From positions 91,310,979-91,374,978 of the forward strand of contig OZ022501.1 in NCBI GenBank assembly GCA_963989385.1: a stretch of 64,000 nt of DNA, given 5' to 3'. Made by a program: the position numbers and the translations under genes. This DNA is from Ctena decussata (lineage: Eukaryota; Mollusca; Bivalvia; Lucinida; Lucinidae). The notes beneath the pieces are model-generated. The model was not told where the DNA came from. It saw nothing but the letters and a program-made list of their open reading frames with translations, and did no database searches. Of the stretch, positions 2,166-59,300 are shown piece after piece (the first letter of the stretch is position 1; each line of letters begins with the position of its first letter).

Positions 2166-3437
2166 CTAGGTCCAGCCTAGAGCAACATCATTATTCTTGT
2201 CACACTGAGATGGTGCATCCAGAGCCTTCCGGAAATTGGAGTACTGTTCTTGAGGTGTGATATGATGAATAACAACCAAATACATGTAATTACATAATCT
2301 TAATCCTGAGCCTGTTAGAGTAAACCTGCCAGTTTTCACTGGTTCTACACTTAACCTATCAGCTAGCACTCCTATATATGCGTCTTCATTCGGAATTGGA
2401 GTCACATACTCGCTGAGATTCACCATTCGAGAAACAACATCTGCTGAGAGAACATAGCCCATCCCACTTGAGTAAGGAGGGTAGTGAGATTCTGGGTATT
2501 CTTCAAAAGACACAACCCATTTATTAATAGGGTTCCGTATCACTTCTAATTTTTCTGGAGTATTCACAACTAATCCTATATAAACATTCGCTTTTGGAGT
2601 ATCAGCTTCAAGTATATTCAATAGAAGTTTTGCATTCACAAAAACATCATCGTCAGTCTTCAGGACATATTCTGTCGGACACAAAGTACTTGCCCAGTGT
2701 AAACCATGCATAACTTTCTGAGTGAGATTCCTGTAAGAATCAATATAGCTGCCTTTGAGTATATCACCAAAATGATTTATTTCGTTATCTACAAGAACTT
2801 CGGATGGTCGGTGAGTAGACTGGCCAACCAGAAACAAACACTGCCATGCAAATTTTGTTAAGTTAAACCTGGAAGGATTGCACCATGTTTCTCTGATAGC
2901 TTTCCGTCTGTCAGAATTTTCTGGTGCTGAAGTTATCACAATTAAAAATTTGCTGCCCCGCTGACAATTTGGCTGCACTGAAAATATATCATACAATTCT
3001 TGAATATGCCATTTTATAACTGTGTCTTCTATAAACTGTATTACATGCTTTTTACCGAACACTTCCACTGATTTATGATGAAGCTTTGTTCGTTTTCCGG
3101 ACTTGTATTTTTCGGCAGACGAATCATCCTGATGTCGCATAATCGGCACACGGTTACTAATATAGGTCAAGATGATGCTGTAGGTCACAATAAAGGCCAC
3201 AGACAACAAAATTACTGAAGTAATACTGGCTTTAAGCAAAACACGCTTTGACTGACGCCGCATCCGAGAGGACCTCATGTCCGTCAAAAGTTCAACTGAA
3301 ACCAGTGTCTGTGAGACTGTTCTCAGGAAATGACCGGTGGCAGTCTCATGTCCCTGAGACCTGGACTTCTTTGGCACCATGGCTGTGGATGAGTCGAGAA
3401 GCTCTGTGAATTCAGTGGGAACACACACATTCCACAA
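2166..3437 (-). CDS. GT31 family beta-1,3-galactosyltransferase-like type II Golgi protein
   Basis: Intact single-exon ORF of 423 codons. It probably transfers galactose or N-acetylglucosamine in beta-1,3 linkage to glycoprotein or glycolipid acceptors in the Golgi lumen, as GT31 enzymes do; the exact sugar cannot be read from sequence. A membrane anchor lies at about residues 67-92. GT31 blocks follow in order: SDRRKAIRETW (175-185), DILKGSYIDSYRNLTQK (225-241), the metal/UDP-sugar motif KTDDDVFVN (260-268), YPPYSSGMGYVLS (319-331) and PNEDAYIGVLA (349-359). N-glycosylation sequons occur at NLT 192, NLT 237 and NLS 340. Length is normal for the family. The true start is probably Met20 (3380), which sits in a perfect gccATGg context. 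Met54 would give the shortest cytoplasmic tail. Vertebrate B3GALT genes are also often single-exon. I see no inactivating change. Confidence 0.88.
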   Translation of the reverse strand: MWNVCVPTEFTELLDSSTAMVPKKSRSQGHETATGHFLRTVSQTLVSVELLTDMRSSRMRRQSKRVLLKASITSVILLSVAFIVTYSIILTYISNRVPIMRHQDDSSAEKYKSGKRTKLHHKSVEVFGKKHVIQFIEDTVIKWHIQELYDIFSVQPNCQRGSKFLIVITSAPENSDRRKAIRETWCNPSRFNLTKFAWQCLFLVGQSTHRPSEVLVDNEINHFGDILKGSYIDSYRNLTQKVMHGLHWASTLCPTEYVLKTDDDVFVNAKLLLNILEADTPKANVYIGLVVNTPEKLEVIRNPINKWVVSFEEYPESHYPPYSSGMGYVLSADVVSRMVNLSEYVTPIPNEDAYIGVLADRLSVEPVKTGRFTLTGSGLRLCNYMYLVVIHHITPQEQYSNFRKALDAPSQCDKNNDVALGWT

Positions 3438-4022
3438 CTCGAGAGGTCACAACGAACTAGGACACCATTTTGAACTCACACCATTCTGAAATACAAAACA
3501 CAATTTGTATCGTACGCCTTATAATTTATAAGAGAATCTTTTGGTCTTCATTATAAATATTCAGTCACCAGACATTTCTAACCCTTGCAGCACCAGAAAG
3601 CAGATGACAAAATTTAATTCTGTAAAATTTAAACAATGTTTCATCCCAGCCTTATCACACTGAGAATTAAAAATAGCCATCAGAGGAGATGGCAAATCCC
3701 CCGACCGAAGACCCCCATGGGCCTTGGTAAAAAGGGTGCCCTTCAAAACACATTAGTAATATATTGTCGTTCTTTTATGCTTCTGATTGACATTAACTGT
3801 TAACAGATGCATGATTATCTAACACTCAGACTAAAACAGTATGCTTGACTGCTAAAAAGAGGTAATATCTCAAACAGCCACCATATACACAAATGTATAG
3901 TATACGATACATTCAACTTTCAAAATGTGTGAATAACTTCTAAAGTACAAGCCCTACAAACCTAATTTTGAGCTCTCTAGTAAGTGAATTTGGACAAAGA
4001 ATCCAAATCTGGAAAAAAAAAA
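3438..4022. other. Upstream flank of the GT31 gene; no gene seen
   Basis: This would hold the 5' UTR and promoter of the minus-strand GT31 gene. I see no unambiguous TATA box or other motif, and no supported ORF. Confidence 0.35.
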
Positions 4023-19996: not shown

Positions 19997-22900
19997 TCAG
20001 CTTTTCAACCATTTTATGAAATTATTATGAAAAGAATTAACAGTATTTAAATTTTTCAGTTCAGAAGGTAAACTGTTCCAGACAATTGGTCCTGAATATG
20101 TGATGCTTTGTTTAAATATTTCTCTGTTAGGTCGGGGTGTGGTGAAATTTGAAGATACAGCTGACCGTAACAAAGGCAGATTATCATTAACAATTCTTTG
20201 ATTAAACATCTCATAGATATATGGAGGTGTTTCTGATTTATAAACTTTAAACATGAATTTAGATTTTCGTAAAAATAGTCTTTCATATATAGTCAGTATT
20301 TTCAATTCTTGCATACTTTCAAGAACATTTTCAACATTGTAATCCAATATAATTTTGCATGCACGTTTTTGCAGACGGAAAAGTCTGTTGAGATTAAGTT
20401 GGGACGTCCCACCCCATACTAAGTTACAATAGTCTGTATGAGGCTGAATGTAAGTTTTGTAAAATTGAGTTCTGTGTTCAGTAGAAAGGTATTCTTTAAT
20501 TCTAGATAAAAGCCATAAATTAGATGATATCTTTTTGCATATTTGGTCTATATGACTTGACCAAGATAAATTATTATCTATAATAATTCCAAGTATTTTG
20601 TCTTTATTTATGATATTTAAGTTTTCATTGTTTAAGGTCAAACATAATTTATCAGAATCTAGAACTGCTCTCCTTTGATGGGTAGTAATTAACATCAATT
20701 TGGTCTTTGATGTATTGATAGCCATACCATTAAATTTACACCATTCAGAAAGGTTGTTCAGGGCAATTTGCAAGTTGCTCTCAATTGCTGAGCGTGAAAT
20801 TCCAGTTTCATACAGGGTGGTATCATCAGCGTAAAGATCAGTATTTATTGGAGCTGTATAAAGAGGCAAATCATTAATGAACAATAAAAACATTAGTGGG
20901 CCCAATATAGAACCTTGGGGAACTCCATTAATAACTATTTCATCATCTGAGAGGACATTGTTGACAGTTACTCTTTGCCTGCGATTAAGTAAATAAGAAG
21001 AAAACCATGACATTGTATTATCAGACATTTTATAGAGTTTTAATTTTTGCAACAAAATGCTTGGGTCCACAAGGTCAAAAGCCTTTTTAAAGTCTACCAT
21101 TACAACACCAATCATGGAGCCATTATTAATTGCATCAAGCCACCTACTTATCATTCCTATTAATGCTGTTTCACATGAATGTGAAGGTCTGAAACCTGAC
21201 TGAGTTTTATGCAATAAATTATATGTAATAAGAAAATCCATTAATGAATCATGAACATGTTTTTCTAAGATTTTGGAGAGCACTGGAAGAACTGAGATAG
21301 GTCTGTAGTTATTAACATCATCCTTTGAACCACTTTTATGCAGTGGTGCTACTTTGCCTTCCTTCCATTTATTTGGAAATGCTGAATCTCTAATACTTTG
21401 ATTGCATATATGAGTAATGCAATCAGTTATGTATGGAGCTGCAATTTTAATCAAGCGTGGCCCTATTTGATCACAGCCAGTGGCTTTAGATACATCAATA
21501 TTCATTAAAAATTTTAACACTTTCTCCCTAGAGATTTCAGGAATTGTAAAATGGATGCCATCTGGAATTCTGCTATTGCAGAAAGCTTCAAGCTTATCAA
21601 AGTTAGAATTTAGTACAGGCTCCTTTATTTTTGAAGCTACAGACACAAAAAATTTATTGAATTCATTTGCAATTTCATTATTGTCATTAATATCACAATC
21701 CCCAATTTTCAATGCAGATATGCTACTGTGATGTCTTTTATTAAGTCCAATTTCCTTAAATAATTTCCAGACACTGCCAGGGTTATTTTGATTTTCTGTT
21801 ATCAAAGCTGAATATTGTGCTTTTTTAGACTGTTTTATTAGTGTTACTACCTTATTACGCCATATTTTATACTGAAGTTCATTATTTGTTGATTTATGTC
21901 TATCTCGAGTTTTTATAGCATCAATAATTTCTGGAGTTATCCATTTAGGCTGTTGCTTATGTTTAACTCTTTGAGATTTCATCGGCAAATGCTTATCTAC
22001 AATATTTAAAAACATAGATGTCCATGTATCAACAACATCATCAGTGTCATCAAAAAGTTTTATTACATCCCATGGGGCAGACTGCAAATCAGATATAAAT
22101 TCTTGTTCATTGAAGTGTTTATAAGAGCGATAAGAAATAGTGTGATGAGTCAGTTTTGGAACTGAACAATTTGTTTTACGAGTAATAAATACAGGGAAAT
22201 GGTCACTTAATCCTATTTGGGGAACATCAATTGAACTTACATTAGTCTGCATATTACAGTAAATATGATCTATTAGTGTTTCTGAAGAAGAGGTTTTTCT
22301 GGTTGACTGATTTACCTTCTGAATAAGGCCAAATGGTTCTAGATATTCAAACCATGATTTTTTTATATTTTCATTTAACAAGTCCCTGTTGAAGTCTCCT
22401 AATAAATAAAGTTCTTTCTGTGTTTCCAAAATTCTATCAATAAAAATTTCAAAATTTTCATTCCATTTTAAGGTTTCATTTGGATGTCTGTATAATATAC
22501 CTACAAGGTAGCTCTTGGAATTTGTAGGAAAAACTTCTAATACTAAACATTCAATTTCTTTCATCTCCATATCACATCGTCTCTCTACCTTTACTTCATT
22601 CTTAACATATACAATTATACCACCACCTTCTTCACATCGCTCTTTTGAAATTATTCTGTCTTTTCTAAAAAAACTGATAATTATCTATAAAAAAGTAATT
22701 GTCAGGGTGATAATTTTTCAGCTTTGTTTCACTGAGTCCAAAAATATGAATATATTATTTGAATTATTTAACATCAAATCTATTTGGTCAAACTTATTTT
22801 GTATACCTTGGATATTAATATGTCCAATTTTAAAGCCTTTAGTAGTTAATTGAAGATTAAGAGAGGTTTCGGCACACATGGAAGAGCTAATATTTTCAAC

Positions 22901-23326
22901 ATGCGTCAAATCATTATATACAGAATTAAAATTATCATCAGAAACATTACTGTCAAACAGTGTTGACAGGTCATAAATGTCACTTTGTTCATTTAGATTT
23001 CTTGCTGTTTCACTGTCATTAATTGTGTCATCATTATATGCACAGTTGTCTTGGCTGATTGAATCTAGCTCAGTTCTGTTTTGAGATGTATCCTTCTGAT
23101 TAGAAGAGTTATAATAGCATATTGTGTCATCACAAGTTTCATTTATAACACTTACGGATTGATTTATATCCAGTTTATCATTTAAAGAAACAGTATTCGT
23201 TAGGTTACAGTCACATTTCTTTAAATTACAATATTCACAAATGTTTACTAATAATTCAAAGCTATTATTGGTAGGTATTATTGGTAAATTTATGATATTT
23301 GAAATTGTGGCATATTTGCCCTTGTC
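19997..23326 (-). CDS. CR1-like ORF2: endonuclease and reverse transcriptase (one frameshift)
   Basis: Replicative protein of the LINE. The intact 857-codon part (22570-19997) holds the C-terminal half of an APE-type endonuclease (YLLGDFNRDLL, TLIDHIYCN, IGLSDHFPVF) and a complete RT: NNYRPISVLPVLSKILEKHV, DFKKAFDLVDP, NGVPQGSILGPLMFLLFIND and the catalytic LYADDTTLY (about residue 578). The endonuclease N-terminus (GHINIQGIQNKFDQIDL, 22720-22860) is in the other frame. The break sits at a run of five T on the minus strand (22740-22744), so a single-base slip explains it. Upstream of that, the frame stays open back to the ORF1 stop with no ATG before the endonuclease region. ORF2 is therefore in the same frame as ORF1, separated by one TAG. 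Confidence 0.88.
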
Positions 23327-25558
23327 CTATTTTATGTCCCAGCATAACCCTGAAGAATCCTTATGTCCATAACAGTGACACTTAAAGCAACAGACTTGCT
23401 TTTGGTGTTTGCACTGAAAAGTAGTATGGTTAGATAGTCCGCATTTCATACAGCGTTCTAACTGTGACTTCTCTGTTTGATGTTGTGGTTGATTACGTCT
23501 TCCATATCGCGCCTCTGTAAAAGCTGGACTCTCATGTTGGCCAAAATTATGAGAGTTGTGCTCTATGGAGACAGGTCTCCGTCTGGTTTGAGTGTGGCTT
23601 ATTTCCCTGTGCCTGAAATCTCTGACATGTTGACTGGTATGATCTACTCTGTTTTGAGTAGAGTTTGTCGGCAATTGGTTAAAATTGTAGACACACTTCT
23701 CAAAATTGTCTACAACACACAAATGTTGATTTATTGTCCCCAGTAGTCTCTTTATCCCTGATCGTGATAGATGAACATTGTCTCTTGGTTTAAAGAAATG
23801 ATGTCTCAGCTGATTCTGTTTATCATAAAAATCCGCATTTGTATCAATGCATGTCAATTCATTAGTGTGGCACAATCTCATGATCACTTCATTAACTTCT
23901 GTAATATCTGTATCTCCACGTGGACAAGAAGTGCATAAGAATAGTTTACTGTTTGAACTTGTGTTTTTGATGGATGTAATCAACTGTTCATATTTTTCTT
24001 CAAAATATTCAGGATCAGTTTTACTAGATGCATTGTTCCCTCCAACATAAACTATAATATTAGCAAATTTTTTCAGGTCATATATTTGAAGTTTGTCAAT
24101 GATAGTGTCAATGGTAGCACCAGGTATTGACTGACATTCCACATTATTTGTTAGGCCTTTCCTGTTAATGCCATTTATAATTGAATCTCCAATTATTAGA
24201 GTTCTAGAACTAACTCGTGATTGTCCATTGTTTTGCGTAGCCGTTTGCTTAAACTGTTGATTTGTGTTCTTATTTGAACGTTGATTTGAAGAGTGTCCTT
24301 GTTTCACTTTGTCATTTTTGGAGTTGTGATTTCCATTTCTATTTACTGAATTCTCAATGACTTCTGGCTTATCTAAATTTTTTGATAGAACATGACTATA
24401 TGTATCTCCTCCAGGAGTCAGTTTCGTGTCTTCTCTGGTTTCGTCAAGTGTCACAAAAGTCGAATCGTCACATACTGACATAACTGAAACTGCTTGAAAT
24501 TCAGCCTTATCAGATGTTGGTTCTGGTCTAGAATTTAGAAGCATATCAATCTTTGAATTTATTGAAGTCAGCTGTTCTTGTAAAAATCTACTGATTTTAG
24601 TTAGTTCTTCTACCTGACTGCTGATTGATGATATTAAGGGCATTTGTTGCACACTGTCTGTTGGCTCTGTAGATTTTACTGGAGATACTGCTGGTGGCAG
24701 AGGTGCCACTGGTAAGTCCTTTTCCAGAGCAGACGTTGATGTCTGTGACAGAGTTTGATTAATGTCATCATCAATTTCTCTAGTATACTGTTGATACAAA
24801 TGAATGGCTAATCTCGAAAAGATCATTTCTCTCCATAGTTTATGTCCAGGCCCAGTAGCTGATATCGATGCAGCATTATTGTCACTAGTTAGTGTACACC
24901 ATTTTCCTCTAATGTGTGTAGTGTAATTTGACTTAACTTCATTGATGGGCTGAGCATGCAGCTCCTTGTCTATTGAGTTAATAAATTTGACATATAAGTC
25001 CTTTGATGAAAATATTATGGTAATTTGTCCATCACTTGGGATCACATGGTACAGTATACCATTAAATCTGTCTTCAGGTATACCTCTAAATTGTCTTATT
25101 GGTGTTGAAAGTCCCGAAAACAAAGACTGTGACTGCGTTTGAATTGGTGAAACACTTCTGGTACTTTCGTTTTCTTCAGACAAGGTGGAGTTATGTTTCT
25201 GATTGTCATTTTCTGTCTGAGAATTTTCCAAGTTTTCCAAGTCTTCAGACAAGGTGGAGTTATGTTTCTGATTGTCATTTTCTGTCTGAGAATTTTCCAA
25301 GTCCTTAGATGCCCTTGTTGTTGGTGTTGACAGCCCAGCAAACAAAGATTGTGATTGTGTCTGAAGTAATGAAACACTTTTGATACTTTCATTTTTCTCA
25401 GATATAGGCATTCCTATGGGCACTAATTTTGTCCCTCTTGTAGCTGATCTGTTTTTGTTCTGTTCTGAGATGATGTCTCTTTCAGAGAACACGCAGTCTG
25501 AAGTTGTTGAAGCTTCTCGATATCTAATACTGATCAAATTTACCCTTCTGAACTTCAA
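23327..25558 (-). CDS. CR1-like ORF1: esterase (SGNH) plus zinc-knuckle protein
   Basis: Intact 743-codon ORF, the RNA-binding partner protein of the LINE. Residues ~450-610 form an SGNH/GDSL-type esterase-like domain: LIIGDSIINGI with the GDS serine (~456), VYVGGNNA for the GxN block and DNVHLSRSG with the catalytic-type DxxH (~592). Such domains are known in CR1-group ORF1 proteins. The C-terminus has two zinc-knuckle-like motifs, CMKCGLSNHTTFQC (CX2CX4HX4C) and CFKCHCYGHKDSSGLC. The N-terminal third is polar and low-complexity. It carries a 69-bp in-frame tandem duplication (about 25174-25311, phrase NSQTENDNQKHNSTLSE twice) and a second repeated phrase, TQSQSLF.GLSTP. The start is the first ATG of the open frame. 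Confidence 0.87.
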   Translation of the reverse strand: MKFRRVNLISIRYREASTTSDCVFSERDIISEQNKNRSATRGTKLVPIGMPISEKNESIKSVSLLQTQSQSLFAGLSTPTTRASKDLENSQTENDNQKHNSTLSEDLENLENSQTENDNQKHNSTLSEENESTRSVSPIQTQSQSLFSGLSTPIRQFRGIPEDRFNGILYHVIPSDGQITIIFSSKDLYVKFINSIDKELHAQPINEVKSNYTTHIRGKWCTLTSDNNAASISATGPGHKLWREMIFSRLAIHLYQQYTREIDDDINQTLSQTSTSALEKDLPVAPLPPAVSPVKSTEPTDSVQQMPLISSISSQVEELTKISRFLQEQLTSINSKIDMLLNSRPEPTSDKAEFQAVSVMSVCDDSTFVTLDETREDTKLTPGGDTYSHVLSKNLDKPEVIENSVNRNGNHNSKNDKVKQGHSSNQRSNKNTNQQFKQTATQNNGQSRVSSRTLIIGDSIINGINRKGLTNNVECQSIPGATIDTIIDKLQIYDLKKFANIIVYVGGNNASSKTDPEYFEEKYEQLITSIKNTSSNSKLFLCTSCPRGDTDITEVNEVIMRLCHTNELTCIDTNADFYDKQNQLRHHFFKPRDNVHLSRSGIKRLLGTINQHLCVVDNFEKCVYNFNQLPTNSTQNRVDHTSQHVRDFRHREISHTQTRRRPVSIEHNSHNFGQHESPAFTEARYGRRNQPQHQTEKSQLERCMKCGLSNHTTFQCKHQKQVCCFKCHCYGHKDSSGLCWDIK

Positions 25559-33790: not shown

Positions 33791-34458
33791 TCATCACATG
33801 CGTAATAAACGTGCATTTTTTGAAGAATGGAGCGTTCACAAATATTGATGATCATCTACATTCGTTTTGTGAAAACATGCCAGAATGAGTTTCCATTGAC
33901 GGCATGCAACCTGGTAGAATCGAGCCAACCTTGAAAATTATCTTCTTGTGAAAAACGTCCATTTTTGCAACACTCAAGTTTGAAAAATGCAGTCATCGAC
34001 TGATTTAAAAACTAAACACTTTCTATAATCAACTATAAACTTAAAAAATGCAGTCCTTGCCAAGATCTGCTTTCAAGTTTAAACTTGTATCCTTGACTAG
34101 ACTAAAAAAGGAAACCCCTCCCCACCTACTCCCACGCCACTAAAACAACAGTAACTCGGTTGGTTGGTTGATTTGATGCTTAACGTCCACGGTAAACAAC
34201 TAAGGTCATGTCGGGACGGTCAGTTAATCTAACCACACTATTCCTGGGCAGGATTATATTTTATTTTCGTCCTTTGAGATCAGAGGATATATTCTGAGAA
34301 ATCTGAAATTTTAGATTGGTTTATACTCATATTCTAAGCCATCATTTTATATATTATTTGGACCCTTTTTGATACTAATCAGTCTTTGAATCGACTGTCC
34401 AATTAAGCTTAAGCAATTACAGTATGCTCTTCTTTGGTTTCGTCACCAGATATTGCCA

Positions 34459-34504
34459 GGGTCACTGAAGAGGCTTTATTAGCCGAAACTACGTAGTCTG
34501 GCCC
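34459..34504 (+). ncRNA. Hammerhead ribozyme 1 (type I, stem III without a loop)
   Basis: Order of elements: gggtca (stem I 5' side), ctgaaga (invariant CUGANGA), ggc-tttatta-gcc (stem II and loop), gaa, then actacgtagt (stem III), c at the cleavage site (34498) and tggccc (stem I 3' side, pairing with gggtca with one G-U). All core bases of the family are present. Stem III is a perfect 10-bp palindrome with no loop, so a single copy would be unstable. Two copies on a tandem transcript could pair to form a double hammerhead. Confidence 0.88.
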
Positions 34505-34841
34505 ATGTTCCTTCTTGTGAATGTATTCTCTGCTCTTGAAGGAACTCTTTCAGATTTTAATTTTACCTCACTGCAGCTGGTGTTGTGCAGTGTGGCGGCC
34601 GTAAAACGTCTCCCCGTACATCATCCATAGTGCAGATTATATTTTATTTTCGTCCTTTGAGATCAGAGGATATATTCGGAGAAATCTGAAATTTTAGATT
34701 GGTTTATACTAATATTCTAAGCCATCATTTTATATATTATTTGGACCCTTTTTTATACTAATCAGTCTTTGAATCGACTGTCCAATTAAGCTTAAGCAAT
34801 TACAGTATGCTCTTCTTTGGTTTCGTCACCAGATATTGTCA

Positions 34842-34887
34842 GGGTCACTGAAGAGGCTTTATTTGCCGAAACTACGTAGTCTGGCCC
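34842..34887 (+). ncRNA. Hammerhead ribozyme 2 (tandem copy)
   Basis: Identical layout to ribozyme 1, 383 bp downstream: gggtca, ctgaaga, ggc-tttattt-gcc, gaa, actacgtagt, c, tggccc. The only difference inside the 46 bp is one loop II base. Cleavage at both copies of one transcript would release a 383-nt RNA monomer. Confidence 0.88.
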
Positions 34888-35267
34888 ATGTTCCTTCTTG
34901 TGAATGTATTCTCTGCTCTTGAAGGAACTCTTTCAGATTTTAATTAGACCTCCTAAGCGGTTAACCAGTACTAAGTGCACATACTTTCGCCAGTAACTGA
35001 CAACTACCCTTCTTGAATCAGCGGAAGGAGAAACGAAAGTATGTGGCCAGACCGGGATTCGAACCCAGGACCTCTGACTTACGAGTCAGGTGCCCTACCG
35101 ACCCGGCCCGACTACAGTAACTCGGAATTGGCTATTTTTCAATTATCAAGGTATACAAAAGCACTATTCTTTCCATTTTCTCTTCCTTGGTTACATATTA
35201 AGAACTTCGAAAACTATTAAACATCACGGGAACGTAACCCCAGATTTACACCTAACATAATAGTAAC

Positions 35268-35390
35268 AAGAGGGCCACGAGGCCCTGAAACGCTCACCTG
35301 AGTAAAAAGGTCAAAGGTCAAACTAGGGTCATCATTTGAACAGACCTGGCAGTTTTACATTGTCAAAATATAAGAGTTGTTGTTTTATTG
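35268..35390. repeat. Dispersed repeat fragment (aggtcaaggtca type), left part
   Basis: It starts aagagggccacgaggccctg and continues with aaggtcaaaggtcaaact. Related sequence continues at 37320-37790 beyond the minisatellite block. I recognise it as a dispersed non-coding repeat, not a gene; the class is unknown. Confidence 0.4.
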
Positions 35391-35505
35391 TTTTACGTCC
35401 ATGTTACACAGCTATGGTCATGTCGGGACGGTCAGTTACCCTAATCACACAATTCCTGGGCAGGCTAAGACCTCCTAAGCGGTTAACCAGTACAAAGTGC
35501 GCAGC
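35372..35505 (-). mobile_element. SINE tail and body, truncated (uninterrupted copy)
   Basis: Same family as 34157-35112: ttttacgtccatgttacaca, gtcatgtcgggacggtcag, ctgggcagg, then agacctcctaagcggttaac without any insert. Its tRNA-like head is missing where the 45-bp minisatellite begins. Confidence 0.7.
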
Positions 35506-35830
35506 AGAATTAGCGCCACTTCGGGAGACTTCACCCTCTAGTAGCGCAGCTGTAGTAGCGCAGCGACATCAGCGCCACTTCAGGAGACTTCACCCTCTAG
35601 TAGCACAGCGGCATTAGCGCCACTTCAGGAGACTTCCCCTTGTAGCAGCGCAGCGGCATAAGCGGCACTTCAGGAGACTTCAACCTGTAGCAGCGCCGCG
35701 GCATTAGCGCCTTTTCAGGAGACTTCACCCTCTAGTAGCGCAGCGGCATTAGCGCCCTTTAAAACATTTCCCCCTCTAGTGGCGCAGCGGCATTGGTGCC
35801 ACTTAAGAGGACTTCGCCCTTTAGTACAGC
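35506..35830. repeat. 45-bp minisatellite, orientation 1
   Basis: The phrase gagacttc recurs at 35525, 35584, 35629, 35674 and 35719, mostly at 45-bp steps, with gtagcgcagcggcattagcg between. This is the reverse complement of the unit at 36421-37150. Confidence 0.9.
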
Positions 35831-36420
35831 AGCTCAACCTGGGCATTGTTTGTGACACCAGTTCCCAGGATCAGCTTGACCTCATCTAGTACACTGACCC
35901 TGTAGGGAGTTTTGTCCAAGCGGCCTTCAGCCGCGATGCTTGCCTAGTGTCCGGTGTCATCAGTAAAGAGCTGGTTCGCGGATCATGCTTGATAGTAAGA
36001 GGCCACCGCCAAGATGGCTCAGTAATGAACAGCACCGCCTAGATGGCCTTGACCGAGGGCCCTTGCATAAGGAGCTTGTTGTAAATGGTTGTCATGTGTC
36101 AGGAATATTTGGATTCATTGCTTCCAGAAACTAAAGTGCAGTAACACTGAATAAGCATTGTTGTGACATTCTCAGGCCATTTTTTAAGGTGACAATATGC
36201 CTGGTTCAGCTCAACCTGGGCACTGCTTGTGACCCTTCCCAGTTCCCAGGATCAATTTGTTTCTACCTGATTGCACTGACCCTGTTGGGAGTAGGTCTGA
36301 TAATGTCTGATCAAAAAAGTCTAAAGTATTACCATAAAGATAACGTAAATTTTAAATTTTGGCAACTGAGTTATTACTGAAGACTCAGGGATGAATAAAA
36401 TGCTGAGCTACTGAAAGGTG
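35831..36420. other. Spacer between the two minisatellite blocks
   Basis: It contains a direct repeat: cagctcaacctgggca with cagttcccaggatca at 35829-35875 and again at 36208-36255. No gene is supported. Confidence 0.5.
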
Positions 36421-37150
36421 ACGACTTCTAAAGTCGCACAGTTCCACTGCTTTATTAAAGGTGATGTCTTCTGCACTAGCGCTAGTTCCGCTGCGCTACT
36501 AAAAGGGGCTGTCTCCTGTAGTAGCGCTAATGCCACTGCACTACTATAAGAGAATGTCTTCTGAAGTAGCGCTATTGCCGCTGCTCTACTATAAGGAGAA
36601 GTCTTCTGAAGTAGCGCTATTGCCGCTGCGCTGCATAAAGGGACTGTCTTCTGTTGTCGCGCTAAAGCCGCAGCGCTACTATAAGGGAATGTCTTCTGAA
36701 GTAGCGCTATTGCCGCTGCGCTACTATAAACGGATGTCTTGTGAAGTAGCGTTATTGCCGCTGCGCTACTAAAAGGGGAAGTCTTCTGAAATAGCGCTAT
36801 TGCCGCTGCGCTACTAAAAGGGGCTGTCTCCTGTAGTAGCGCTAATGCCGCTGCGCTACTATAAGGGAATGTCTTCTGAAGTAGCGCTATTGCCGCTGCG
36901 CTACTATAAGGTAATGTCTTTTGAAGTAGCGCAAATGCCGCTGCGCAACTGTAAGGGAATGTCTTCTGAAGTAGCGCTATTCCCGCTGCGCTACTAAAAG
37001 GGGAAGTCTTTTGAAGTAGCGCGATTGCCGCAGCGATTGTATTAGGGGCTGTCTTCTGAATAAATGCTATTGCTGCTGCGCTACTATCAGAAGCTGTCTT
37101 GTGAAGTAGCCCTATTGCCTTTGCGCTACTGAAAGATGTCTTGTGAAGCA
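36421..37150. repeat. 45-bp minisatellite, orientation 2
   Basis: About 16 units of the type gtcttctgaagtagcgctat plus tgccgctgcgctactataag, with starts at 36511, 36556, 36601 and 36646 (exactly 45 bp apart). Because 45 is divisible by three, one frame stays open for 80 codons and reads as a 15-residue repeat. I treat that as a by-product, not a protein. Confidence 0.92.
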
Positions 37151-42630: not shown

Positions 42631-42769
42631 ATTTTCTGCTTCGTCAGTTGTGACGCTTTCTAGAAGACTTTCACCGATGTTTGATATATTCCTGTCATGC
42701 CTGTCTTTCATCATTACACAGGTCGGTCAGTCTCGTGCGCATATAATCAAGTAAATGTTCTTACTACAA

Positions 42770-43092
42770 TGAAGGCTGCAGATAATATCTCGGGATAATA
42801 TCACAGCGGCCGCCAATGACACTCATGCACAGGTGACAATTACTGTTTCACGCGTTGAACCGCCTTTAGAAATTCAAACCATAACAGCAGACTTCAAAAC
42901 GCTATCTTCCATCGAGTTTATTGTTTTCCACAATGAAAGCTGCAGATAATATCTCGGGATAATATCACGGCGGCCGCCAATGACACTCCTGCACAGGTGA
43001 CAATTACTGTTTCACGCATTGAACCGCCTTTAGAAATTCAAACCATAATAGCAGACTTCAAAATGCTATCTTCCATCGAGTTTATTGTTTTC
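42770..43092. repeat. 164-bp tandem repeat, two copies (left arm)
   Basis: The phrase gagtttattgtttt recurs at 42914 and 43078, exactly 164 bp apart. Each unit has ctcgggataatatcac, gcggccgcc and caggtgacaattactg. The right arm has five copies. Confidence 0.93.
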
Positions 43093-44257: not shown

Positions 44258-44289
44258 TGCGGACTATATGGAAACTATTCCTGCGCAGG

Positions 44290-44468
44290 CTTAGACCACC
44301 TAAGCGGTTAACCAGTACCAAGTGCACATACTTTTGCCAGTAACTGACAACTGCCCTTCTTGAATCAGTGGAAGGAGAAACAAAAGTATGTGGCCAGACC
44401 GGGTTTCTAACCCAGGACCTCTGACTTATGATTCAGGTGCCCTACCGATTGCGCTACGTGGCCCGACG
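44290..44468 (-). mobile_element. tRNA-derived SINE (same family as 34157-35112)
   Basis: Body phrases ctaagcggttaaccagtacc and gtatgtggccagaccggg are followed by the tRNA-like head, whose complement reads gggccacgtagcgcaatcgg (A box) and ctgggttagaaaccc (worn B box). The anticodon arm is again one base short, so it is not a tRNA gene. Confidence 0.75.
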
Positions 44469-44645: not shown

Positions 44646-46084
44646 AAAATATTTTTCAGCATTTCTGCGACGAAATGAAGTTGCATCAATGTCAGTACAA
44701 CGTCGTTTTGACGTTATATGCCCAACGGGACTTAACATTTCAGACTGAGCCAAGTAGGCACATTGCGTTGAAATGACGTCCTACTGGCATCGATGGGACG
44801 TCATCACGTCGCATCAACTTAAGACAATGTCATTTTGACGTCATTTGCACGCTGGAAGGCCTGTTTCGACAACGTGAGCACTGGCAGCTGTTTCATGTGT
44901 ATGTACCAAGCTGTACACACTATTTAACACCTTTGAGACAATCCACCCCAAAGCATATTACTTTGACCATATTCAGAATACGCATCCGAATCCGATTAAA
45001 TTGGTATTGGCAAGTATTTGGTATCTTATGCTTTTCAGAATACGTAGAAAAGACTGACATGAAAATTCCAGTGTTCCCAGCAGTGATCACTAGTGTTTCA
45101 AGACGTTGTCTGTATTTTTGACTATACCAGTAGTACTAGTGGTGGGGCTTGCTGTAATAGATAGGACCAGTCGTGTTCCCAGTAGCGATTAGTTGTGACT
45201 TTTGTTACTTTACACAAGATCAAACTTCTTAGTAGTGATAGTTACAGCCATAGACTCAGGCAGTGGCCAGAGTAAATATCAATAGTATAATATGTTCTCA
45301 AACTCTATACCAGAATGCTAGAAGAGACGCAGTGATCACTAGTGTTTCAACACGTTGTCTGTGGTTACAGTTGCTACTTTTTGACTATACCAGTATTACT
45401 AGAAATGGGGCTTGCTGTAATAGATAGGACCAGTAATCTTATTTAACATAAGTTGTAATAGTTGCTTTCTTACTTTCTAAACAATGCCAGTGTTCCCAGT
45501 AGCGATTAGTAGTGGCTGTTGGTACTTTACATAAGGTCAAACTTCTTAGTAGTGATAGTTACAGCCATAGAGTCAGGCAGTGGCCAGAGTAATTATCAAT
45601 AGTAAAATATGTTCTCATACTCTATACCAGAATGCCTGGAACTAACTGTCATAGGCAATCATGCTGGTGTTCCCAGTAGTGATCAGTAGTGACAGTTTGT
45701 GCCTTGGACAAGATCAAAAATCCTAGTAGTGATACTTTTTGGTATAAAGCGTAGCAGTATTCGCAGAAGCGAAAGATAGTAAATGTTGCTTTAATAAACT
45801 TAATCAGTGTTCCCAGTAGTGATAAGTAGGATTTCAAGATGTGATCAGTAGTTACTTTCGCTATTTTAGACTATATCAGCGGTTCTTGTAGTGATAGTTG
45901 CGATCATAGACGCGGCCAGTCTATCCAGTAACGATCATTAATAAAACAAATGCTATTTTACCCTTTATATCAGTATCCTAGAAGAGACGTATTGTTATAG
46001 ACAATGCCAATATTCCCAGTAGTGATCAGTATTTACTGTCGGTACTTTACTTTAATATCTTACTATTCAGAACTTATATATCTT

Positions 46085-46345
46085 CACTGCAGCTGCTGTC
46101 TGTGCCGTGTGGCGGCTGTAAAACGTCTCCCCGTACATTATCATAATGAAGATGATATTTTCTGGTCTTTTTGTGATCATTGAGTTCATCTTAGTTATTT
46201 TGGAAACAGAGTTCCGCTTAAGCCGGTACTAGGGGTGTGGCTGGTGTTGCACATTTCATTATTGGTCATGAACATACGAAATTAAACCGAGTCTCCTATT
46301 TTCTGTTTTTTTTTATGTATTCCTTGCTTCCAAAGGATCTTACTG
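46085..46345 (+). mobile_element. Fragment of the hammerhead element linker plus unknown sequence
   Basis: 46085-46155 matches the linker of the element at 34252 (cactgcagctg, gtaaaacgtctccccgtaca). No ribozyme core remains here. The following ~190 bp (gccggtactaggggtgtggc) is not satellite-like and I cannot classify it. Confidence 0.5.
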
Positions 46346-55751: not shown

Positions 55752-55797
55752 GGGCCAGACTACGTAGTTTCGGCTAATAAAGCCTCGTCAGTGACCC
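55752..55797 (-). ncRNA. Hammerhead ribozyme 3 (minus strand)
   Basis: Read on the minus strand: gggtca, ctgacga (CUGANGA with C at the variable position), ggc-tttatta-gcc, gaa, actacgtagt, c, tggccc. It has the same 46-bp length as the plus-strand copies. The change at the one freely variable core position, with all fixed positions kept, argues for conserved function over chance. Confidence 0.87.
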
Positions 55798-58374: not shown

Positions 58375-58480
58375 CCCAGTATGTAGGGTAAGTACCGTAG
58401 TGTGCGATATTGCCTGGTGTGCGATATTGATAAATAAGTTGTCTCACTTGCAAAACACTAATCGCCTTTAAAATTGAAAA

Positions 58481-59300
58481 CAATAAACTCGATGGAAGAT
58501 AGCATTTTGAAGTCTGCTATTATGGTTTGAATTTCTAAAGGCGGTTCAATGCGTGAAACAGTAATTGTCACCTGTGCAGGAGTGTCATTGGCGGCCGCCG
58601 TGATATTATCCCGAGATATTATCTGCAGCTTTCATTGTGGAAAACAATAAACTCGATGGAAGATAGCGTTTTGAAGTCTGCTGTTATGGTTTGAATTTCT
58701 AAAGGCGGTTCAACGCGTGAAACAGTAATTGTCACCTGTGCAGGAGTGTCATTGGCGGCCGCTGTGATATTATCCCGAGATATTATCTGGAGCTTTCATT
58801 GTGGAAAACAATAAACTCGATGGAAGATAGCGTTTTGAAGTCTGCTGTTATGGTTTGAATTTCTAAAGGCGGTTCAATGCGTGAAACAGTAATTGTCACC
58901 TGTGCATGAGTGTCATTGGCGGCCGCCGTGATATTATCCCGAGATATTATCTGCAGCTTTCATTGTGGAAAACAATAAACTCGATGGAAGATAGCGTTTT
59001 GAAGTCTGCTGTTATGGTTTGAATTTCTAAAGGCGGTTCAACGCGTGAAACAGTAATTGTCACCTGTGCAGGAGTGTCATTGGCGGCCGCTGTGATATTA
59101 TCCCGAGATATTATCTGCAGCTTTCATTGTGGAAAACAATAAACTCGATGGAAGATAGCGTTTTGAAGTCTGCTGTTATGGTTTGAATTTCTAAAGGCGG
59201 TTCAACGCGTGAAACAGTAATTGTCACCTGTGCATGAGTGTCATTGGCGGCCGCTGTGATATTATCCCGAGATATTATCTGCAGCCTTCATTGTAGTAAG
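58481..59300. repeat. 164-bp tandem repeat, five copies (right arm)
   Basis: caataaactcgatgg starts at 58481, 58645, 58809, 58973 and 59137, always 164 bp apart. Copies differ at few sites (for example gcaggagtg or gcatgagtg, ctgcagctt or ctggagctt). Confidence 0.95.

Follow-up and report, generated by a model that had tools for sequence, protein, structure and literature searches.

How can an RNA that encodes nothing return to an animal genome? The question is raised by positions 34252-34945 of the window, our term for the whole 64,000-nt stretch of Ctena decussata DNA that was analysed, where hammerhead ribozyme motifs sit in a short tandem element. For the RNA circles of animal retrozymes, a return by way of LINEs or of Penelope-like elements (PLEs) stands as a proposal in the text of PMC7229834 available to us.

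A retrozyme insertion in the window

A single insertion fills the stretch 34252-34945: a non-LTR retrozyme, of a kind already known from animals, in a bivalve genome. Its parts, its target, and its relatives in the window are as follows.

34252..34945, plus strand: retrozyme insertion of 1.8 monomers of 383 bp each; position 34252 counts as monomer coordinate 1
34459..34504, plus strand: type I hammerhead ribozyme (HHR), copy 1, by descriptor; predicted cleavage after C at 34498
34842..34887, plus strand: type I HHR, copy 2, by descriptor; predicted cleavage after C at 34881
34499..34881, plus strand: predicted 383-nt RNA monomer that cutting at both ribozymes would release
34563..34634, plus strand: 72-bp block directly 3' of the putative reverse-transcription start, from BLAST and variability
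34936..34945, plus strand: fixed 3' end GATTTTAATT, from junctions; putative reverse-transcription start on an internal RNA site
34180..34251, plus strand: left part of the repeat hit by the first insertion; uninterrupted copies at 35379-35503 and 44274-44448, the latter around the junction
34946..35108, plus strand: remainder of the interrupted repeat on the right side, including a tRNA-like stretch at 35044-35108 (minus strand, below the Rfam gathering score)
46084..46179, plus strand: older family fragment, matching the 72-bp block and its 3' continuation with 84% identity
55695..56164, minus strand: second retrozyme insertion (1.2 units), beginning within the HHR; 3' end shared with the first (TTTTAA)
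55752..55797, minus strand: type I HHR in the second insertion, by descriptor, with C at core position N7

An initial annotation of the window had reported two 46-nt segments 383 bp apart, which we located at 34459-34504 and 34842-34887, and had called the element retrozyme-like. The name is apt: in unit size, in its type I HHR, in having both tandem and dispersed copies, and in its low GC and lack of coding capacity the element fits metazoan non-LTR retrozymes as the available text of PMC7229834 presents them. The unit is low in GC (38%) and non-coding, its longest ATG frame spanning 41 aa, and its longest purine run is 7. With 383 bp it falls within the 150-450 bp of the short, tandem and dispersed units of such elements.

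The annotation was also right that the repeat is tandem (1.8 copies of the 383-bp unit), but its term 'LTR-like' is misleading, as the copies are not an LTR pair. The direct repeat, between 34252-34569 and 34635-34952 (97.8% identity by BLAST), consists of about 311 bp plus the 72-bp block when the ends seen in other copies are used; it results from an insertion that covers 1.8 circuits and stops at the fixed 3' end. We rule out an LTR reading: what is repeated is only part of a tandem unit, and insertions of the family measure anything from 0.3 to 8.9 units.

Compared with uninterrupted copies of its target, the first insertion shows no duplication, and four target bases are missing at the junction. 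For the second, a short uninterrupted copy of the target lies about 50 bp downstream, and again there is no duplication. The two insertions are 87.7% identical by BLAST; in a full alignment 416 of 466 positions agree, with 7 gap columns besides. The tRNA-like stretches at 35044-35108 and 44391-44463, both on the minus strand, belong to a dispersed repeat, probably a SINE, one copy of which hosts the retrozyme.

The hammerhead motif

Each unit reads GGGTCA-CTGAAGA-GGC-loop-GCC-GAA-ACTACGTAGT-C-TGGCCC. All positions that we take to be fixed in the type I core (CUGANGA, GAA, A15.1-U16.1 and C17) are present in the window copies. Stem I pairs at 6/6 positions, one of them G-U, and stems II and III each at 3/3, in agreement with the annotated claim of a complete core and a stem I pairing across the motif. 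The predicted cleavage site falls between monomer positions 247 and 248. On both strands of the 64-kb window a strict descriptor found three sites, all in the retrozyme family; 40 first-order Markov windows of equal size contained none.

Covariance models gave a different answer. The annotation had looked to a hammerhead covariance score, and here it found no support: every search with Rfam 15 stayed below gathering, with no hammerhead at E<=10 in 1 kb and none at E<=5 over the window. On 116 nt, RAGATH-1-hammerhead scored 14.6 bits (E 2.7) against a gathering score of 56.3, and Hammerhead_3 13.4 bits (E 2.2) against 48.5; the best hammerhead score among the seven loci searched was 23.6 bits with Hammerhead_3 (L175, E 0.63). 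We take the poor scores as low sensitivity of those models for the short HHR form. The authors who described metazoan retrozymes used RNAmotif descriptors, a significant Rfam score being no criterion of theirs, according to the available text of PMC7229834. When 10 of 120 viral contigs with a related pattern were searched with Rfam, one hammerhead (type II) was called, elsewhere than the pattern.

The Rfam outcome nevertheless counts against a claim based on covariance, and covariation cannot offset it, being absent: in stem I, 283 of 306 cells were paired against a shuffled mean of 283.5. Partition folding of the dimer RNA did not favour the HHR fold either, giving stems I and III a pair probability of at most 0.03 and stem II 0.82 and 0.30. 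The circular fold of the monomer reached -87.6 kcal/mol against a shuffled mean of -76.9 (z -2.2), a value matched by 2 of 200 shuffles.

Copies across the genome

In the assembly of 1.658 Gb, a 34-position HHR pattern had 2850 + 2703 = 5553 exact matches, and the reversed pattern had none. Core position N7, which is known to be free, takes all four bases among 100 listed genomic sites.

For a closer view we aligned 141 unit-level matches from 41 loci (39 fetched and the two in the window). This high-identity sample is biased, since 40 of 2869 candidates were scored, which favours arrays no shorter than about 690 bp; lengths of 691-780 bp account for 20 of the 41. Some of the 141 matches are older fragments beside the main array (L142, L157, L167). 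Among the 124 units that span the HHR, 118 keep the core intact and 114 have near-complete stems, and 40 of the 41 loci retain at least one near-intact HHR, with core and near-complete stems. The loss of core bases in most copies, which the annotation had named as evidence against its reading, was thus not seen in this sample.

The HHR is less variable than the rest of the monomer (1.3% against 3.0% non-consensus), its window ranking 14th of 383. The five least variable 46-nt windows start at monomer positions 339-349, which lie within the 72-bp block that follows the insertion end. Between the first insertion and the second window copy the HHR differs by 2 changes in 46 positions, which is not significant alone (P about 0.1).

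Insertions share an internal 3' end

In the high-identity sample, 39 of 41 arrays end at monomer positions 309-324, and two (L139, L147) end elsewhere. At the junctions read, the last shared letters are usually CAGATTTTAATT, at monomer position 311, a fixed internal 3' end about 64 nt 3' of the HHR cleavage site. A positional sample, taken from contig C1 as its first 40 regions with an exact HHR pattern, behaved alike: 42 of 43 HHR-bearing chains end at 306-320, the exception being L194. The remaining 8 of its 51 chains have no HHR and were excluded from this count; they end at 315, 352, 327, 49, 49, 37, 43 and 82.

The 5' ends, in contrast, are scattered across the whole unit in both samples. 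They are denser between about 290 and 375 in both, in the high-identity sample partly through length bias. Lengths run from 131 to 1396 bp in the positional sample and reach 3414 bp (8.9 units) in the high-identity sample.

Tandem arrays with homogenised units are also what an ordinary satellite-like repeat would show, had it spread by unequal crossing-over and DNA-level dispersal with the HHR as a relic. Yet dispersed single and sub-unit copies share one 3' boundary (42/43), and a fixed boundary with scattered 5' ends is unexpected from crossing-over. Uninterrupted target sites exist, moreover, and the HHR core is retained, so that we regard a satellite origin as highly improbable.

One length stands out. 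In the positional sample 13 of 42 insertions measure 0.85-1.06 circuits where 5.6 were expected on a flat scale taken over the 41 insertions between 0.3 and 1.85 circuits (P 0.002, for a band that was chosen after the data were seen). It is as if the enzyme often halts on meeting its own start, and a structured region at that place would be an equally good cause. Another 3 of the 42 start at the HHR cut (244-250), against 0.8 expected; at 450-454 bp, their length is roughly that of one circuit with the stretch between start and cut added. These three suggest run-off on linear or cut templates in a minority of insertions. Run-off at an HHR-cut 5' end was considered as the general source of 5' ends and rejected: no array of 41 in the high-identity sample starts within 5 nt of the cut, and with 3/42 at 244-250 in the positional sample it accounts for a minority at most.

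At the junctions there was no clear excess of target-site duplication when slack was allowed and shuffled pairs served as the comparison; the mean adjacent match was 2.0 nt against 1.6 +- 0.27, and the longest 7 nt. A poly(A) or simple 3' tail was not seen in the listed junctions. We compared the 3' flanks with TTAC, the sequence in which the RNA continues past the end. L139, L147 and the second window copy had been excluded beforehand, and 4 of 38 rows (L131, L132, L136, L156) were dropped because they had no end motif. At positions +1 to +4, 17, 18, 24 and 15 of 34 flanks match, where 10.6, 10.6, 10.8 and 6.3 were expected. This excess is in line with target priming.

At one of the 39 fetched loci (L163) two retrozyme arrays stand head to head, at 531-1044 on the minus and 1249-2104 on the plus strand, 204 bp apart; the GIY-YIG matches of this genome commonly show such an arrangement.

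Copies made by LINEs typically have a fixed 3' end and variable 5' truncation, and the insertions described above fit that pattern. The retrozyme might then be a SINE-like element mobilised by a LINE: its transcripts would stop, perhaps at a terminator, at or close to GATTTTAATTTT, the LINE reverse transcriptase would start there, and HHR and tandem form would be secondary. T-runs at the retrozyme end agree with this, as does a LINE-like frame with an RVT_1 domain in the window (19997-22684). Such copying should, however, leave target-site duplications, which show no clear excess over shuffled pairs, and the listed junctions lack the poly(A) or simple tail; arrays of up to 8.9 near-identical units are unexpected if the transcript stops once per unit. 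We consider mobilisation by a LINE quite unlikely. The simplest reading of the insertion anatomy is reverse transcription of circular RNA from a fixed internal start.

Units of an array resemble one another

A circular template predicts both the insertion ends and a close likeness of the units within an array, as found across many copies. Median divergence was 0.96% within arrays (50 arrays) and 5.77% between them. Variants that also occur in at least two other arrays were common to all units of their array in 250 of 336 cases (74.4%) in the high-identity sample, against an expectation of 8.0% and a maximum of 12.0% in 100 shuffles; in the positional sample, which had no shuffle comparison, the count was 120 of 184. 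Units more than 3% different occur in 10 of the 50 arrays. Under a stricter criterion, by which the units of a locus must resemble each other more than any unit from another place, only 23 of 49 loci qualified; a few of these loci hold separate insertions. Units that are mostly near-identical are what repeated copying of one circle gives, and in long arrays later unequal crossing-over could mimic them.

A linear monomer would span 248 round to 247, and copying from 311 would yield 64 nt only. Multi-unit copies therefore need a template that is circular or multimeric. The second kind could be linear multimeric transcripts of existing arrays, on which an internal start of the PLE type would set the 3' end. 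In the anole PLE, HHR mutants inserted like the wild type in vitro, unprocessed RNA being the main substrate (PMC11167929, in the text available). The 10 heterogeneous arrays among 50, the 23 of 49 loci with own-array closeness and the three insertions that start at the HHR cut likewise speak for multimers. The sharing of variants within arrays, on the other hand, is far above that in shuffles, and one-circuit insertions are in excess, though a structured stretch close to the start might halt the enzyme too. We think linear multimers an unlikely template and retain the circle as the preferred one.

PLEs and the question of the helper

GIY-YIG matches (150 scored of 926 candidates) are frequent in frames of PLE size, many of them open frames of 766-774 aa, and occur in tandem and, judged by eye, head to head. 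One PLE unit, L208, has two ORFs. Its ORF2 carries GIY-YIG as the sole Pfam match and matched no solved structure by sequence; relatives carry RVT_1 and GIY-YIG. L208 also carries a type I HHR of minimal form, its stem III almost absent. Among 40 of its copies scored of 311 candidates, 29 are full and 11 partial, and all 11 partial copies end at sense position 275. Six of 12 outer array ends in this family lie at 273-275, five at 229 and one at 727. Measured from the HHR cut, ends 275 and 229 lie 101 and 55 nt downstream.

The retrozyme end contains the 8-mer TTTTACCT of the L208 end at 275 and the 7-mer GATTTTA of the end at 229. For the 8-mer the chance of coincidence is 0.0064 when two windows of 30 nt are compared and 0.10 when it may lie anywhere in both regions, the 7-mer standing outside this calculation.

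In a second PLE family, 8 of 10 fetched stretches could be mapped to the unit L209, and the eight share a single end site, each next to (TA)n. L209 itself yielded no HHR; a loose scan of the 10 stretches had one match (L223), which lies beyond the element end. Altogether, 20 mapped PLE 3' ends abut (TA)n: 12 of 12 in the L208 family and 8 of 8 in the L209 family (loci L210-L227, L229, L231). In the first 14 nt of the retrozyme 3' flanks, by contrast, a TA run occurs in only 1 of 39 cases in the high-identity and 0 of 42 in the positional sample. Given this difference, and since no HHR was found in L209, neither family is shown to be the helper. We do not claim the L208 family as a proven helper, its mapped insertions abutting (TA)n, unlike the retrozyme ends.

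The mechanism looks PLE-like. Reverse transcriptase and GIY-YIG are absent from the retrozyme, in which the longest frame has 41 aa; to judge from its sequence it is not a PLE and would at most be mobilised by one.

PLE-like proteins are also filed under assemblies of bacterial symbionts of bivalves (Thiodiazotropha, a Solemya symbiont), where they probably represent host DNA.

A proposed life cycle

We infer from the sequence, as the annotation did, a cycle of cleavage, circularisation and copying by an enzyme of another element, and hold the scheme as a whole to be probable. Type I hammerheads would cut transcripts of tandem copies into 383-nt monomers, which a host ligase would close into circles. 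With nicked target DNA as primer, the reverse transcriptase of another element would begin to copy the circle at an invariant internal position, some 64 nt 3' of the cut. Copying would run from 0.3 to almost nine circuits and stop at scattered places, and the cDNA would be joined to the target without clear duplication. The likeliest type of enzyme would be the reverse transcriptase of a PLE with a GIY-YIG endonuclease; it is favoured because a PLE starts internally shortly 3' of an HHR cut and because PLEs in this genome show similar fixed ends. For Mytilus, self-cleavage and circles in tissues are in print, as is ligation by RtcB in vitro, in the part of the literature available to us.

A broader proposal is possible rather than probable. 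Animal retrozymes might spread by rolling-circle, target-primed reverse transcription, in which a PLE-type enzyme would recognise, 3' of the hammerhead, a short start site that copies or imitates one in the enzyme's own RNA (GATTTTA / TTTTACCT). Beginning there on the closed RNA circle and running round it, the enzyme would give nearly all genomic copies a shared 3' end and scattered 5' ends.

Comparison with known elements

The closest counterparts are the non-LTR retrozymes of Mytilus galloprovincialis (PMC7229834). Compared by description rather than by alignment, and within the available text, they share the type I HHR, units of about 350-390 bp, thousands of copies in tandem and dispersed form, low GC, the absence of LTRs and the lack of coding capacity. 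A fixed internal 3' insertion end, described here, is not described in the available text of that paper. In open-licence PMC papers, as far as their text was available, we found no report of a retrozyme in a clam-like bivalve, nor of a fixed internal 3' end. What is new here is the insertion anatomy, type I HHR retrozymes of similar size being known from the mussel, on the available text of PMC7229834.

PLEs with minimal HHRs resemble the retrozyme in their tandem copies and in an internal start or end past the cut. In the anole PLE, reverse transcription starts 111-118 nt into the ORF and the HHR cut lies 26 nt into it (PMC11167929, available text), from which we compute a distance of 85-92 nt; the values are 55 and 101 nt in L208 and 64 nt in the retrozyme. 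PLEs differ in encoding a reverse transcriptase and an endonuclease, whereas the retrozyme encodes nothing. Insertions of the L208 family, moreover, lie at (TA)n and, by eye, often head to head, whereas retrozyme sites are mixed.

Plant LTR retrozymes, as presented in the available text of PMC7761336, likewise have HHRs in direct repeats and a proposed circular RNA intermediate. They have, however, type III HHRs, LTRs with PBS and PPT and a 4-bp target-site duplication, where we find type I, no LTR pair and no duplication detected.

The rule of a fixed internal end may be general across retrozymes, and the anatomy helps to explain how such elements spread. With thousands of copies, a fixed internal 3' end, scattered 5' ends and mostly near-identical units per array, the re-entry of circles becomes testable at the bench with a PLE enzyme at GATTTTAATT.

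Other features of the window

Three LINE-like open frames, of 895, 202 and 743 aa, lie at 19997-25558 on the minus strand; the RVT_1 domain is in the first. A single open frame at 2166-3446 (minus strand) resembles beta-1,3-galactosyltransferase (Galactosyl_T), its closest relative being 94% identical. A bivalve host agrees with the named proteins among the nearest matches, from Mercenaria (55%), Sinanodonta, Potamilus and Mya. A 164-bp tandem repeat occurs at 42766-43092 and 58476-59294, about 15 kb apart and in opposite orientations, the consensus sequences being reverse complements by eye. Tandem repeats of 45 bp lie at 35553-35833 and 36458-37130, and the second of them yields an open frame of 248 aa on the minus strand.
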